In this document: positions 29,384 through 36,993 of the stretch, in pieces | How the letters are laid out: every line of letters begins with the position of its first letter | How positions within the stretch are numbered: position 1 is the stretch's first letter | From: Aurantiacibacter marinus | GTDB lineage: Bacteria > Pseudomonadota > Alphaproteobacteria > Sphingomonadales > Sphingomonadaceae | Length of the DNA stretch: 64,000 nucleotides | Assembly (NCBI RefSeq): GCF_001021555.1 | Contig: NZ_LDCP01000003.1 | Span: 62,001 to 126,000, forward strand | Reading direction: 5' to 3' | Translations under genes and position numbers: made by a program | Notes under the pieces: generated by a model | Databases searched by the model: none | What the model was told of the DNA's origin: nothing | The model's input: the letters and a program-made list of their open reading frames with translations, nothing else

Positions 29384-29943
29384 TATGATTACGTCCCTCC
29401 AAGATTTGGTGGGAGCTGCATATCCTCAAGTTTCGACTGTAATCAATCGCAAATGAGGCACGCTTTGCCGAATGTCGCTGAGATACAATTTCTCGCTATC
29501 ACAACCACATGCTGCGCCGCTCTACCGGATAGAAGAGGCCCGCTGAGAGAGATCTGGACCTCGCCTGCATCACCAGACGGCGGCCATGTTTCGATCACAC
29601 GAAGAGATCAGCGGTGCTGTGCCAATCCGCTTCTTCCGGATCGACAGGAAAAGCTTTGCATCTTGCTTCCGCCCGCCAAGGGCGAAAGGCACCGCATGAT
29701 GGTCCAACTGGTAAAAATCAGAGCCTCTTCATCGGGGCGCAGGACATAACGCATGTTCTGCGCCGGCCCGGGCGATTCCACAATTCCCGGCAAAGGTGAT
29801 GGTATTCGTCCATTCCCGGCACAGTCTTCCCGCTGCCCGCTGCGGCCATGCTTTGCAGTCGCTCCAGCGTAGTCGCGGGGCCGCCGGGCGGCCTTGTAAA
29901 GTCCGCGCGTTATGCCATCTTCCTCGCTTGGGGAGACCTTTTC
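29384..29943. other. 560-base stretch with no supported gene
   Basis: The longest open frames (29453-29749 plus, 29608-29793 minus) have no family resemblance and no good ribosome binding site. The region must hold the promoter for the divergent lipoprotein at its left end and for the reductase at its right end. It may be a decayed gene or contain a small RNA; nothing specific can be assigned. Confidence 0.5.
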
Positions 29944-31563
29944 ATGGAATCAATTGCTGCCGATCTCGAGACGATGAAGCGCGTCCCGCTTGCTGACCGC
30001 CATGTCGCCATGATCTGCGCCATCGGGTCCGAACGAACTTACGAATGCGGCGATATGGTTGCCGAAGTCGGTCAGCCGATGGATGAATTTCTCTACGTTC
30101 TCGAAGGTGAGATTGAAGTTGTCGACCCCTGGTCGGGCGAACGTCTGCTTGATGCTTCGCTCGGGCCAACGCAGTTCATGGGCGAGATCGGGTTTTTGAA
30201 CGCGGGCACATGGTTTCTGCCCATGCGAGCTGCCAGTGTGACCAAGGTTGTCGCTGCACCTCGAGAGGCGATGCTGGAGCTCATGAGCCGAGTGCCGGAG
30301 CTTTCAGACCATGTTATTTCGGTGTTTGCAGCGCGGCGGCGCAAGCAGTTCGAGGCGCAGAATTCTTCGGTCAAACTCATCGGAGCAGACCGCGATGGCG
30401 CAGTCCAAAGGGTGGAGAGTTTCCTGCGCCGCAACCGCGTCCCCTACGAAAGTTACGACCTCGATTCGTCTGAGGAAGAGGCGCTGGAGCTGTGCAAACT
30501 TTCCGATCACAAACCATCGGTAATCATGGGCGATAGCGAAGTGATGGCAGACCCCACTCCGCGCAAAGTGGCGCAGAAGCTGGGTCTTGATCTGAACATC
30601 TGTTCCAACCGCGATTATGATGTGTTGATCGTTGGCGGCGGACCGGGCGGGGTCGCAGCGGCAGTATATGCCGGTGCGGAGGGGCTGTGCGCTCTTCTCG
30701 TCGAAGATACGGCGATTGGCGGTCAGGCAGGCAGGTCAAGCCGTATCGAAAACTATATGGGATTTCCGACCGGCATTTCCGGCGCTGATCTGGTGTACCG
30801 TGGCGAAATCCAGGCGATGAAATTCGGCACGCGTTTTGCGATGCCCCGCCGTGTTACCGCATTACGGCAAACAGATGATGGCCGCTTCTGCGCCACGCTG
30901 GATAATAACGAAGACGAGATTTGCGCCCATGCAGTGGTGGTCGCAACGGGGGTTAAATATCGCCGGCTGCCAATCGCCCGGCTGGCTGAGTTCGAAGGTG
31001 CCGGCATCTATTACGCTGCAACCGACATGGAAGCGCGCTTCTGCCGCAACAACGAGGCCATTGTGGTTGGTGGTGGCAATTCTGCAGGGCAGGCGGCAAT
31101 GTTCCTGAGCCGGGCAGCAAAGCACGTACACCTTGTGGTACGCGGAAAGAGCCTGGCGCAATCAATGTCCGAATATCTGACGCGCCGGTTGGAAAGCGAT
31201 CCGGCGATCACAATCCACCATGAAACCGAAGTTTCCGCGCTGGACGGCGATGACCGGCTTTCTGAAGTGACCTTGTCGGGACCTGATGGCGAGCTGCGGC
31301 TGGCTACCAACGCGCTTTTCATCATGATCGGAGCTGCGCCCAATACCGATTGGCTGAAAGGTCACGCAGAGCTTGATGAGCGCGGCTTTGTGCTGACAGG
31401 TGAGGAAGTCGGAGCGCGTTCGCCATTCGAAACGTCGACACCGGGCATTTTCGCTATTGGCGATGTGCGCGGCGGATCCGTCAAAAGGGTGGCGAGCGCT
31501 GTTGGTGAAGGCTCCGTCGTGATTTCAGCCGCCTGGAACCACGTGGCCAAGCAGAAATCCTGA
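29944..31563 (+). CDS. Cyclic-nucleotide-binding thioredoxin-reductase-like flavoprotein
   Basis: 539 residues from ATG 29944 (GGGGAG nine bases upstream). Residues 15-130 form a Crp-like cyclic-nucleotide-binding domain (YVLEGEIEVVDPWSGERLLD, FMGEIGFLNAGTWFLPMRAA). Residues about 145-220 look like a glutaredoxin-type fold without cysteines at the active place. From about 225 comes a TrxB-like pair of nucleotide domains: DVLIVGGGPGGVAAAVYAG (FAD) and AIVVGGGNSAGQAAMFLSRA (NADPH), plus PGIFAIGDVRGGSVKRVASA. The CxxC that TrxB needs is replaced by YYAATDMEARFC, so classical thioredoxin reduction is unlikely. Such proteins are known as cyclic-nucleotide-binding TrxR-like. Confidence 0.85.
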   Translation: MESIAADLETMKRVPLADRHVAMICAIGSERTYECGDMVAEVGQPMDEFLYVLEGEIEVVDPWSGERLLDASLGPTQFMGEIGFLNAGTWFLPMRAASVTKVVAAPREAMLELMSRVPELSDHVISVFAARRRKQFEAQNSSVKLIGADRDGAVQRVESFLRRNRVPYESYDLDSSEEEALELCKLSDHKPSVIMGDSEVMADPTPRKVAQKLGLDLNICSNRDYDVLIVGGGPGGVAAAVYAGAEGLCALLVEDTAIGGQAGRSSRIENYMGFPTGISGADLVYRGEIQAMKFGTRFAMPRRVTALRQTDDGRFCATLDNNEDEICAHAVVVATGVKYRRLPIARLAEFEGAGIYYAATDMEARFCRNNEAIVVGGGNSAGQAAMFLSRAAKHVHLVVRGKSLAQSMSEYLTRRLESDPAITIHHETEVSALDGDDRLSEVTLSGPDGELRLATNALFIMIGAAPNTDWLKGHAELDERGFVLTGEEVGARSPFETSTPGIFAIGDVRGGSVKRVASAVGEGSVVISAAWNHVAKQKS

Positions 31564-31657: not shown

Positions 31658-31732
31658 GGTGCCCGAGGGCGGAGTCGAACCACCGACACGACGATTTTCA
31701 ATCGTCTGCTCTACCACTGAGCTACTCAGGCA
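31657..31732 (-). tRNA. tRNA-Phe (anticodon GAA)
   Basis: The 76-base RNA reads 5' TGCCTGAGTAGCTCAGTGG... 3' with the encoded CCA end. The acceptor arms TGCCTGA and TCGGGCA pair with one G-U. The anticodon stem GACGA/TCGTC holds the loop TTGAAAA, giving anticodon GAA. The T-arm has GGTTCGACTCC. It is an isolated tRNA gene between the reductase and yacG. Confidence 0.97.
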
Positions 31733-32975: not shown

Positions 32976-33561
32976 GCTTGAATCCTGCAGCTTTCAATAG
33001 TGTGCGTGTTTCGTACAGTGGCAGTCCCATGACTGCTGAATGGCTACCCTGAATCCACGGGATAAGCGCTTCGGCCATGCCCTGGATCGCGTATCCACCA
33101 GCCTTCCCGTGCCATTCACCGCTGGCGATGTAAGCGTTTATCTCGTCAGGAGAGAGGCGTTTGAATTTAAGCTGGGTTTCACTCAACTTTGCCCGCACTG
33201 TGCCATCAGGTGCAGCCAATGCGATGGCGCTGAGGACGCGGTGCCGACGGCCGGAAAGCAATTCCAGGCATTTGCGTGCGGTTTGTTCGTCCTCTGCCTT
33301 GGGCAGGATTCGCCGTCCGCAGGCCACAACCGTATCGCCTGCCAGTACGTGAGCATCCCCTGCCGCAACTGCCAGCGCTTTTTCGTGTGCCATGCGTATG
33401 GCATAGGTCCGCGGCAATTCCGCCTTGTGCGGCGTCTCGTCGATATCGGCAGGACATATGGCATCAGGCTTCACGCCGATCCGCGCGAGCAATTCGCGCC
33501 GTCTCGGGCTGGCCGATGCCAGAATGAGAGAGGGGCCGGGCGTTGGCATGCCCGACAGCAT
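32968..33561 (-). CDS. maf: Maf-family nucleoside triphosphate pyrophosphatase
   Basis: 197 residues. SLILASASPRRRELLARIGV at the start, MAHEKALAVAAGDAHVLAGD with the acidic catalytic region (AGDTVVACGRRIL) and GEWHGKAGGYAIQGMAEALI are the Maf signatures. Maf proteins hydrolyse non-canonical or pyrimidine NTPs (dTTP/UTP type). The ATG shares one base with the infA stop (TAATG) and the 3' end overlaps the RNase gene. A slightly later ATG at 33549 is possible. Confidence 0.93.
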   Translation of the reverse strand: MLSGMPTPGPSLILASASPRRRELLARIGVKPDAICPADIDETPHKAELPRTYAIRMAHEKALAVAAGDAHVLAGDTVVACGRRILPKAEDEQTARKCLELLSGRRHRVLSAIALAAPDGTVRAKLSETQLKFKRLSPDEINAYIASGEWHGKAGGYAIQGMAEALIPWIQGSHSAVMGLPLYETRTLLKAAGFKLG

Positions 33562-33812
33562 TAGCCCGTGTAGCCTGGAGGCCCGGCGCGGCCCGGCATA
33601 AAGCGGTAGGTGATACGCGCCTTGGTGAGATCATAGGGTGTGAGTTCACACAGAACTTCGTCACCAACTAGAACGCGGATACGGTTCTTGCGCATCCGAC
33701 CAGCGGTATGACCAAGGACTTCGTGACCGTTTTCGAGCTCGACCCGGAACATCGCGTTGGGCAGCAGCTCCACTACCTTGCCGCGCATTTCGAGGAGTTC
33801 TTCTTTAGCCAT
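33561..33812 (-). CDS. infA: Translation initiation factor IF-1
   Basis: 83 residues. [40 protein letters not shown] and ITYRF are standard IF-1; a short tail [12 protein letters not shown] extends beyond the usual 72-residue end. IF-1 is an OB-fold protein on the 30S A site that supports IF-2 and IF-3. It heads the maf-RNase-yacG operon, which is a typical order in sphingomonads. Confidence 0.97.
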
Positions 33813-33881: not shown

Positions 33882-33901
33882 TTCCCTCCCGTAAAAGGGA
33901 A
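33882..33901. other. Short hairpin in the infA upstream region
   Basis: TTCCCT and AGGGAA pair across an 8-base loop, about 75 bases upstream of infA. The purpose is unclear. The stem echoes the CTTCCCC/GGGGAAG hairpin near 1.55 kb. Confidence 0.35.
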
Positions 33902-33947
33902 GTCCGGCATGAGGCACCAAGTTCGACTGGAACGATTGTGACCCAAA

Positions 33948-33967
33948 TGTCGCAGTATAATGCGACA
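33948..33967 (+). promoter_or_regulatory. Inverted repeat around a TATAAT box upstream of the receptor gene
   Basis: TGTCGCA, six bases, TGCGACA is a perfect 7-base inverted repeat. A consensus -10 hexamer TATAAT (33956-33961) lies over its centre and right arm on the plus strand, giving a transcription start near 33968 and a leader of about 90 bases before the receptor gene. On the minus strand the same palindrome contains TATACT, facing infA. Protein binding would therefore compete directly with RNA polymerase. No -35 match is strong. Confidence 0.45.
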
Positions 33968-34059
33968 AATTGATACTTTGGACCATCTTGAGGTCCCGTG
34001 CGTTACGGCACATACGTCTCAGAAGGTGGGGACCTGATCATATTTTTCAAGGATTAACA

Positions 34060-36993
34060 GTGCGCGCTCATACCACCACGAGTATCGCGGTCATTGCGGT
34101 TATGCTCGCATTGCAGCCTTTCAATGCAGGTGCGGCAAGCGCGCAGGACGCCAATCCGGAGCCGCCAACCGGTCCGGACCCTGCGCAATCGGAAGACGAT
34201 ATCGATCAGATCATCGTTTACGGCGCACGCCTGCGCGGCCGCATCGATTCGCCGCAACCGCCAATTCTTGAGCTGGATGAAGACGATATCGCCGCATACG
34301 GTGCTGGCTCCATCGCCGAATTGATCGAGGCGCTTGGGCCGCAGGTTTCCAGCGGGCGAGGACGCGGAGGCGGTTTTCCGGTCATTCTGGTGAACGGCGT
34401 GCGGATTTCCAATTTTCGCGAATTGCGCAGTTATCCACCCGAAGCCATCGAGCGGACCGAGGTTTTCAGCGAGGAAGTGGCGCAGCGGTTCGGCTATTCG
34501 GCTGATCAGCGTGTGGTCAATATCATCCTGAAGGACAATTATTCCAGCCAGAGCGTCGAGCTTGAATATGGCCAACCGTTCGACGGTGGCTTTTCCCAGC
34601 AGGAGGTACAAGGCACCTATCTGCGGATCGACGGACCAAGCCGCCTCAATCTCAATGTGGAATGGGACAATTCCAGCCTTTTGACCGAGGGTGAGCGCGG
34701 AGTAATCCAGGCTGATGCGAGCATCCCGGATGTTGCGACCGATCCTGATCCAGCCAACTTCCGCAGCCTTGTCGGCGATAGCTCGAGTGTGGAGGCGACC
34801 GCCAACTGGACGACGCAGCTTGGTGAAACCGGCAACTCGATCAGCCTGAATGCCACATATGAGCGGAATGACAGCTTGCGCCTGCAAGGGCTAGATACCG
34901 TTGAATTGACAGATGACACAGGTGAAAGCGCGCTGCGGGCGTTTAATGTCGCGAGCCCGCTGGCGGTGGATCGCCAGAGCAACAACTATTCCGCAGCCGC
35001 CAGTATCAATGCCGGTGTGGGTGACTGGCAGGTTACAGGTACGGTTGACGCAACCATCACCGATTCCGTCAACGATACCCAGCTACGGCTCGACACCACT
35101 TCTCTTGTAGCGGCCGCCGCAGCTGGCAATCTCGCTATCGATGCCGACCTTGGCGATTTTGCGGAAGCGGGTTTCGATCGCTCTGAAACGAACACTTATA
35201 CCGTGAACGCGCTTCTTACGGCACGCGGCAATCCGGTCTATCTGCCGGGCGGCGAGATGTCGGTCACAGCAATCGCCGGCTACCGCGCCAATGGCATCGA
35301 AAGCACCGATACGGGCAATCCCGGACTGATTACCAATCTTGACCGGACGCGCTGGCAGGCGGGCCTGAATGTCGGCGTACCGATTACCAGCCGGGATGAG
35401 GATTTCGGCAGCGCGCTGGGTGATATTTCGCTCAACTTCAACGCCGCTGTTTTCGAACAATCTGATTTCGGCACCCTGTTTGACTGGTCGGCGGGTGTGA
35501 CCTGGGGTGTGATTGAAGGGCTCACTCTTACTGCGACCTATATCAACCGCGACAGCTCTCCATCGCTGAGCGAGCTTGGCACAGCGCAGATCGCGACACC
35601 CAACGTTCCTGTCTTCGATATTGCCAACAATGAAACCGTGCTGGTTACGGTTATTACAGGCGGCAATCCGCTACTTCCGGCACAAAGCCAGAGCGACTGG
35701 AAGTTCGGTATCAACTGGCAATTGCCATTCATCGAAAACAGCAGCCTGCAGATCGAATATTTCGACAATCACTCCGACGATGTGACGCAGGGCTTTCCCG
35801 TGTTGACCCCGGCCATCGAAGCCGCCTTTCCCGGGCGGGTTGAACGGAATGCGGCAGGCATTCTGACCCGACTGGACGAACGTTTCGTCACCTTCGCTGA
35901 ACAGGATGTAGAGCGGTTTCAAGTGGGCTTGAATATGTCTGGCCAATTCGCTGGCGGTGGCGAGACGAGTGGCCAAAGCGGTCCTCCTGGCGCAAATAGT
36001 CCCTCTGGCCGTCCCTCGGGGCCAGAGTCTGGTGGACCGGCTGCAAGGCCCGGTGGTGGTGAAGGTGCCAGTGAAGGTCGCGGTGAAGGTGGCGGGAGGC
36101 CCGGCCCGGAACAGATGGCCCAAATGCGCGAGCAATTTTGCACAGCAGAGCCCGATGTGGTCATCGCACGATTCGATGCCGCGCTTGAAGCGGCCGCAAA
36201 CGGTGAACCCGCACCGCTTGGGCCAGGCGGGCAGCCGCTCGCGATACCTGCGCGTATGCTTGAAAGATTGACCGGCGAAGACGGCAAGATTGATCCGGAA
36301 CGTTTTGCAGCGCTGCGTGAGCGTATTTGCAGCACCGATGGAGCGCAAATGGCCGGGCGCCCCGAAGGCGCCGGTGATGGTCCGCCGCGCGGCGAAGGCC
36401 GGCCCGGTGGCGGCGATAGCCAGGCGCGTGGCGGCAACCGAGGCGGCGGCGGGGGACGTGGCCGTGGCGGTCGCGGCTTCAGCCCCTTCGGCGGCGGCGA
36501 CGGTCCGCCGGTTGGCCGCTGGTTTGCCAATATCCAGTATACGCTGGAGCTGGAAAACACAGTGCTGATCGCGCCGAACATTCCGTTGCTCGATCTGCTG
36601 GACGGAGATGCACTGTCCGGAGGCGGGCAGCCGCGCCATTCGATCACCTGGCGCAGCGGAGCGTTCTATGATGGCTATGGCATGTTGCTGTTTGCCAGAT
36701 ACACGGGGCAGTCGCGCATCAACGGATCGGGCCTGGCAGGAAGCACAGACCTGTTTTTTGATGATTTTGCGACCATCAATATTCGCACTTTCGTGGATCT
36801 TGGCCAGCGCGACAATCTGGTGGCAGCAATACCGTTTTTGAAAGGTTCGCGCATCGGCTTCGATATCGACAATCTGTTCGACTCGCGTCAGCGCGTGACG
36901 GACAGCAGCGGCGCAACTCCGCTGCGGTATCAGCCATTCCTGATCGATCCGCGCGGGCGCAGTTTCGAAATTGAATTTCGCAAACTGTTCTGA
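34060..36993 (+). CDS. TonB-dependent-receptor-like outer-membrane protein with Gly/Arg-rich insertion
   Basis: 977 residues from a GTG with AAGGA six bases upstream. A signal peptide (SIAVIAVMLALQPFNAGAAS) is followed by a TonB-box-like IDQIIVYGARLRG, a plug domain (VILVNGVRISNFRELRSYPP, IERTEVFSEEVAQRFGYS, VVNIILKDNYSS) and a beta-barrel ending EFRKLF. Between barrel strands, residues about 630-817 are an insertion: Gly/Pro/Ser/Arg-rich, then a helical part with Cys in MREQFC and RERIC, then a Gly/Arg-rich run. No standard transporter partner or regulator (TonB, ExbB, FecR) is adjacent. A palindrome over the -10 box precedes it. The ligand is unknown; TonB dependence is inferred only. Confidence 0.75.
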   Translation: MRAHTTTSIAVIAVMLALQPFNAGAASAQDANPEPPTGPDPAQSEDDIDQIIVYGARLRGRIDSPQPPILELDEDDIAAYGAGSIAELIEALGPQVSSGRGRGGGFPVILVNGVRISNFRELRSYPPEAIERTEVFSEEVAQRFGYSADQRVVNIILKDNYSSQSVELEYGQPFDGGFSQQEVQGTYLRIDGPSRLNLNVEWDNSSLLTEGERGVIQADASIPDVATDPDPANFRSLVGDSSSVEATANWTTQLGETGNSISLNATYERNDSLRLQGLDTVELTDDTGESALRAFNVASPLAVDRQSNNYSAAASINAGVGDWQVTGTVDATITDSVNDTQLRLDTTSLVAAAAAGNLAIDADLGDFAEAGFDRSETNTYTVNALLTARGNPVYLPGGEMSVTAIAGYRANGIESTDTGNPGLITNLDRTRWQAGLNVGVPITSRDEDFGSALGDISLNFNAAVFEQSDFGTLFDWSAGVTWGVIEGLTLTATYINRDSSPSLSELGTAQIATPNVPVFDIANNETVLVTVITGGNPLLPAQSQSDWKFGINWQLPFIENSSLQIEYFDNHSDDVTQGFPVLTPAIEAAFPGRVERNAAGILTRLDERFVTFAEQDVERFQVGLNMSGQFAGGGETSGQSGPPGANSPSGRPSGPESGGPAARPGGGEGASEGRGEGGGRPGPEQMAQMREQFCTAEPDVVIARFDAALEAAANGEPAPLGPGGQPLAIPARMLERLTGEDGKIDPERFAALRERICSTDGAQMAGRPEGAGDGPPRGEGRPGGGDSQARGGNRGGGGGRGRGGRGFSPFGGGDGPPVGRWFANIQYTLELENTVLIAPNIPLLDLLDGDALSGGGQPRHSITWRSGAFYDGYGMLLFARYTGQSRINGSGLAGSTDLFFDDFATINIRTFVDLGQRDNLVAAIPFLKGSRIGFDIDNLFDSRQRVTDSSGATPLRYQPFLIDPRGRSFEIEFRKLF

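Follow-up and report, generated by a model that had tools for sequence, protein, structure and literature searches.

The window analysed here, a stretch of 64,000 nucleotides from Aurantiacibacter marinus (contig NZ_LDCP01000003.1, positions 62,001 to 126,000), carries an open reading frame for a receptor-like outer-membrane protein in which a long glycine-rich stretch with two cysteines interrupts the sequence of the barrel. The periplasmic turns of known TonB-dependent transporters are short, and the locus raises the question of what such an insert might be, on which side of the membrane it would lie, whether it is maintained in relatives, and what it could do for the protein that carries it.

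The receptor and its insert

The receptor gene, its parts and its divergent neighbour are located as follows (window coordinates).

33561–33812, minus strand: infA (IF-1; Pfam eIF-1a), the divergent neighbour, kept in most of the relatives compared
34060–36993, plus strand: TonB-dependent-receptor-type outer-membrane protein, 977 amino acids, GTG start (open reading frame; plug and fold matches)
34060–34143, plus strand: probable signal peptide, cleaved after ASA and before QDANPE (from the sequence; site inferred)
34204–34230, plus strand: TonB-box-like segment DQIIVYGAR (aligned with N-terminal segments of Cir and FepA)
34231–34539, plus strand: plug domain (hhalign to FepA; Pfam Plug in the A1 members)
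34543–35949, plus strand: predicted barrel strands 1–16 (AlphaFold secondary structure; strand numbering assigned manually)
35950–36105, plus strand: N-terminal Gly/Pro/Ser/Arg-rich linker of the predicted T8 insert (pLDDT below 50 over most of it)
36106–36333, plus strand: two-cysteine helical module (conserved and under purifying selection in relatives; predicted fold)
36139–36141 and 36328–36330, plus strand: the module Cys codons, in MREQFC and RERIC respectively (from the sequence)
36334–36516, plus strand: C-terminal Gly/Arg-rich linker of the predicted T8 insert (pLDDT below 50 over most of it)
36517–36990, plus strand: predicted barrel strands 17–22 and C-terminal Phe (six strands after the insert in the AlphaFold model)

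The reading frame runs from the GTG at 34060 to a stop at 36991–36993 and ends in FRKLF, with plug, TonB-box-like segment and barrel all present and only 20 residues separating the TonB-box-like segment from the point at which the signal peptide is probably cleaved. The core of this segment, DQIIVYGA, is a putative TonB box as it aligns with the N-terminal segments of Cir and FepA, which we take to contain the TonB box of these receptors. Taken alone, the protein was not readily assigned to a family: the Pfam Plug score was 20.2 bits, under the 23.9 cut-off and indicative of a divergent plug (26.1 bits in a genome-wide search that included neighbouring stretches), the barrel was not recognised by Pfam, an NCBIfam search gave no match, and a PDB sequence search with this single protein returned no receptor at E ≤ 1. 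Among the ten A1 members, Plug was found in all at E ≤ 0.1 and TonB_dep_Rec was matched in one, and a ten-member profile compared with known receptor sequences matched BtuB (E = 2e-4), Cir (1.3e-3) and FepA (0.015), with the plug aligned to FepA by hhalign at a probability of 94.5 (E = 8e-8). All 50 PDB fold matches listed were TonB-dependent or SusC-type receptors, and among these the fit of the full model was poor (Z at most 15.9, rmsd 10.5–14.4). The protein is almost certainly of the TonB-dependent-receptor type, and the first-pass annotation of a receptor-like protein with a plug and a barrel ending in Phe is borne out by the reading frame, the plug–FepA match and the receptor fold matches. 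Elsewhere in the genome TonB_C has four matches above the cut-off and one under it.

The insert takes up 189 residues (35950–36516) flanked by GLNMSGQF and RWFANIQY; the start given for it in the first-pass annotation was correct, and the end, placed there at 36510 for a length of 187 residues, lies slightly further on. The low complexity claimed for it is real, with a peak of 26 Gly in 60 residues which exceeds all of 2000 shuffles of the same protein (mean 14.2, maximum 21). Elsewhere in the genome there are 26 more Plug proteins, with reading frames chosen by a composition rule, and they reach at most 16 Gly in 60, which makes the receptor the most Gly-dense of the 27. The cysteines picked out earlier in MREQFC and RERIC proved to be the only two in the whole receptor, and both lie in the module. 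Two further receptors of this genome (L206 and L210) contain several Cys pairs with spacings of 4–38 residues, which probably form small loop disulfides.

The window protein shares a probable signal peptide, TonB-box-like segment, plug, predicted 22-strand barrel and C-terminal Phe with the FepA / Cir / BtuB-type transporters, but differs from them in a predicted T8 of 189 residues where they have short periplasmic turns. It also resembles the signalling transporters FecA, FpvA and FoxA in having an additional folded domain at what is predicted to be the periplasmic face of the receptor. However, in the part of a review that deals with FecA the extra domain is N-terminal and ahead of the TonB box (PMC11658791), whereas the module considered here is situated within the sequence of the barrel, with a predicted helical fold and a Cys pair (this being a contrast of position and type). 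Pfam found no STN domain in the window protein or in the A1 members, and a signalling (STN) transporter was ruled out as there is no such N-terminal domain before the TonB-box-like segment.

Placement of the insert relative to the membrane

The AlphaFold model of the full protein is weak (949 residues, mean pLDDT 62.8, pTM 0.44), and by manual assignment contains 22 barrel strands. Six of these follow the insert (residues 791–808, 832–842, 845–854, 875–885, 902–913 and 940–947), with pLDDT values of 64–88 for the ten-residue blocks in which they lie, and our manual count places 16 before it if 251–267, 483–505 and 566–578 are loop structure. The last barrel strand of this class of receptors descends toward the periplasm, so that the strand following the insert would begin on the periplasmic side, and counting from both ends of the barrel would locate the insert in periplasmic turn T8, which joins strands 16 and 17. 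The remaining inner turns then measure 2, 4, 2, 2, 13, 2, 6, 2 and 16 residues (seven of nine with six or fewer) and the outer loops 8, 29, 23, 30, 7, 3, 42, 32, 23, 20 and 26 residues (eight of eleven with at least 20), and short inner turns with mostly long outer loops are as expected for the topology assigned to the model. An hhalign comparison of the C-terminal half with FepA was too weak to place the insert (probability 7), which leaves the side assignment dependent on strand counting, and this half of the protein, searched against PDB sequences, yielded no match below E = 0.09. Judged on the predicted barrel, the insert very likely forms turn T8 on the periplasmic side.

Conservation and distribution of the module

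In a set of 31 proteins (the window protein, those of 29 loci from the genus, and L040) the mean pairwise identity of the module was 0.62, compared with 0.61–0.67 for plug and barrel and 0.35 and 0.46 for the N- and C-terminal linkers. Of 14 pairs of relatives examined for selection, which are not independent since some proteins recur, 11 had unsaturated dS and module dN/dS values of 0.02–0.26 (module dS was saturated for the window protein paired with L002, and the L065–L071 pair covers two modules plus the intervening stretch). The same 11 pairs gave 0.04–0.18 for the plug and first part of the barrel, 0.06–0.66 for the N-terminal linker, and, in the nine for which it could be computed, 0.04–0.30 for the C-terminal linker, which suggests that the N-terminal linker is loosely constrained and the C-terminal linker less clearly so. 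Total linker length ranges from 13 to 178 residues among relatives, with a linker Gly content of at least 20% in 117 of 120 proteins. As far as can be judged from these alignments, the module is conserved in the way that the barrel is and is not a random expansion. Set against the check on close relatives that the first-pass annotation had proposed, conservation applies to the module and not to the linkers, which are variable.

These 120 distinct proteins (126 aligned less six exact duplicates, L031–L036) include homologs away from the infA locus as well as second copies (L073 and L078 in genome G126, and L126 with L074 in G148); neither of the G126 copies has modules. The number of cysteines in the insert was 0, 2 or 4 in 57, 45 and 18 of them, corresponding to zero, one or two modules, and was never odd. 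From the TonB-box-like segment onwards there is no other Cys in 117 of the 120, with a pair in two and one Cys in the remaining protein. It should be noted that modules were selected by means of their Cys pair and that two Cys per module is therefore not independent evidence, whereas the even insert counts are. The simplest reading of these counts is a disulfide within each module, which we regard as very probable, and in this respect the earlier suggestion of a disulfide-held module has stood up well. An even number of Cys, presumably with zero included, is stated for 53 of the 55 proteins identified in the periplasmic fraction of a related sphingomonad (PMC3608174).

The isolated module is predicted to fold as a helical domain of 76 residues (pLDDT 81.9, pTM 0.66), and its first and last helices share a pattern that has Cys as its final residue (5.1 identities in 12 positions compared with 2.3 when shuffled, a level reached in 0 of 1000 shuffles). 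Searches with the module gave no confident match: in a Pfam search with 21 module sequences, 11 families were each hit by no more than two of them (best E = 0.0026, to YppG, from a single sequence) and none by the window protein's own module, the best match among PDB sequences was to a designed binder (E = 0.047), and matches to solved structures were weak and scattered (best Foldseek E = 1.9). In two of the 18 two-module proteins, L055 and L058, the two modules are closest to each other and the duplications look lineage-specific, while in the remaining 16 at least one module is closer to a module of another protein. A quick tree of 115 proteins (the 126 less the six duplicates, the fragments L025, L060 and L121, and the short-insert homologs L124 and L126) requires 14 changes in module number with 34 of 112 inner branches left open; when the groups with zero, one and two modules are each considered separately, the strongly supported branches alone force 3, 7 and 8 changes, respectively.

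The receptor was found in 98 of 119 sampled genomes of the family at E ≤ 1e-30 (not all of these 98 matching genomes were fetched) and in 39 of 40 genomes of the genus, where the match in G001 was short and weak. A module profile matched 37 of the 40, including all 33 good ones, with two modules present in six of those 37; it missed G001, G014 and G017, which are incomplete assemblies (69–74%), and the G014 receptor, L220, has a short plain Gly-rich insert with no Cys in it. The frames bearing modules in the 37 genomes are 912–1201 residues long, save for frames of 690 and 216 residues that lie on broken contigs. In a sample of the order, 42 of the 196 genomes had module matches, 69 in all and never more than two in a genome, in frames of 892–1203 residues except for one of 392 residues in G311, and in a sample of the class the module was found in only two of 190 genomes, these being the genome of the window and that of one family member. 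The finding that the module is seen only in frames of the receptor gene was drawn from how many such frames there are, how long they are and how they pair, not all of them having been read.

The gene cluster infA–maf–rng adjoins the receptor in divergent orientation in 19 of the 25 flanking stretches compared (at the L040 locus about 2.8 kb lie between them), and the receptor gene is solitary next to infA. Modules are lacking at six of the 19 infA loci (L038 and L039, plus those of L059, L074, L089 and L104), which indicates that one gene exists both with and without modules. Such module-free proteins are common (57 of 120, including the six at the infA locus, and L220 within the genus) and this argues that the module is not indispensable for transport; it is an accessory and not a condition for the transporter.

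Possible roles of the predicted periplasmic arm

We tentatively describe the window protein as a core sphingomonad TonB-dependent transporter, single-copy and family-wide, in which turn T8 has grown into a disulfide-stapled periplasmic arm, a description that we find plausible though far from secure. The turn between strands 16 and 17 would have become a long flexible arm consisting of a disordered Gly/Pro/Arg-rich tether and zero to two small helical modules, and the two Cys within a module would pair with one another under the oxidising conditions of the periplasm. Turns T8 and T9 of FhuA are labelled in the FhuA–TonB complex in a figure legend of the review mentioned above (PMC11658791), which suggests that the arm would begin close to the TonB-docking face, though that legend makes no statement of contact between T8 and TonB. 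A folded module so placed may bind a periplasmic partner, which could be TonB, peptidoglycan or a protein to which the ligand is passed, with the tether giving the module the reach to do so. Docking of this kind is possible, and neither the locus nor its neighbourhood offers a partner, ligand or operon that hints at it. We are more doubtful of the wider proposal that T8 is a novel sort of accessory to outer-membrane transporters, an evolvable arm with zero to two family-private modules that physically links the transporter with TonB, peptidoglycan or a protein accepting the ligand, and in which the number of modules is tuned between species.

The insert had been interpreted earlier as a loop exposed at the surface and serving in adhesion or ligand capture, with a binding module stabilised by its disulfide, and the short-spaced Cys pairs in other receptors of the genome, which probably lie in outer loops, offer some precedent for this. 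However, 16 strands before the insert and six after it would make it a periplasmic turn, the outcome that the first-pass annotation had itself named as fatal to the surface-loop idea, and strand parity on the predicted barrel leads us to rule out the surface loop, which we consider very improbable. The further suggestion in that annotation, that the protein may not be a normal nutrient importer, stands beside the plug, TonB-box-like segment and barrel that the protein has. An insert beneath the barrel could instead act as a gate or stop, with the arm folded under the barrel to limit movement of the plug or to block the pore until TonB pulls. The predicted position of the arm at the periplasmic mouth would suit this, as does the case of FecA, whose signalling domain reportedly obstructs the TonB box at the periplasmic face (PMC11658791), but the poor conservation of the linkers and the lack of a module in 57 of the 120 proteins make such a gate unlikely.

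It could also be argued that the insert is a neutral low-complexity expansion, in which GC-rich Gly/Arg codon repeats slip and the module is carried along without a role, and the range in total linker length, the fast divergence of the N-terminal linker and the 14 changes in module number are all in keeping with this. Yet the rate of evolution of the module is as low as that of the barrel, inserts with an odd number of Cys are absent, linker Gly is kept at 20% or more in almost all proteins, and the C-terminal linker shows only modest dN/dS values in the nine computable pairs. We consider the neutral explanation improbable as a whole; for the module it is ruled out by the dN/dS values, and it may hold for the linkers only. 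The last alternative is that the module switches with calcium or another metal, its DG-x-I-D loop being about half an EF hand. Like EF-hand domains the module is predicted to contain a helix–loop–helix with this loop, position 5 is Asp in 62 of 81 modules and position 6 Gly in 79, and there are weak, non-significant matches of calmodulin type. Against this, the module has a Cys pair, the acidic ligands at positions 1 and 3 are mostly absent and replaced by Leu (65 of 81) and Gly (56 of 81), position 12 is Arg in 61 and Glu in six, and the structural matches are insignificant (that to calmodulin has a Z of 2.4 over 59 residues, and unrelated matches reach 3.4). A calcium-binding EF hand was ruled out as the calcium-ligand positions 1, 3 and 12 are not kept, and a metal sensor seems to us most improbable.

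How transporters engage TonB and how ligands then pass across the periplasm are still under study, and a receptor that carries its own (predicted) periplasmic arm, together with module-free relatives at the infA locus, provides a ready comparison for TonB engagement or the handing-on of ligand. It also adds a small and probably disulfide-stapled module, seen in one gene, which has no significant match in Pfam or among solved structures. The insert appears not to have been described in the titles and opening lines of abstracts that we surveyed, a body of literature with subscription journals mostly outside its scope.

Several minor observations concern the surroundings of the gene. The leader that separates the receptor gene from infA (33900–34059) looks, by eye, conserved within the genus, and in many relatives has a GCG-TGC-x-CACATA-like stretch before the start codon; it could be a regulatory site. 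An Rfam search across the window found no family at the leader and no riboswitch upstream of the receptor, and its one tRNA gene lies elsewhere (31660–31731, minus strand). Further upstream again, 29848–31563 encodes a fusion of a cyclic-nucleotide-binding domain with a pyridine nucleotide-disulphide oxidoreductase.
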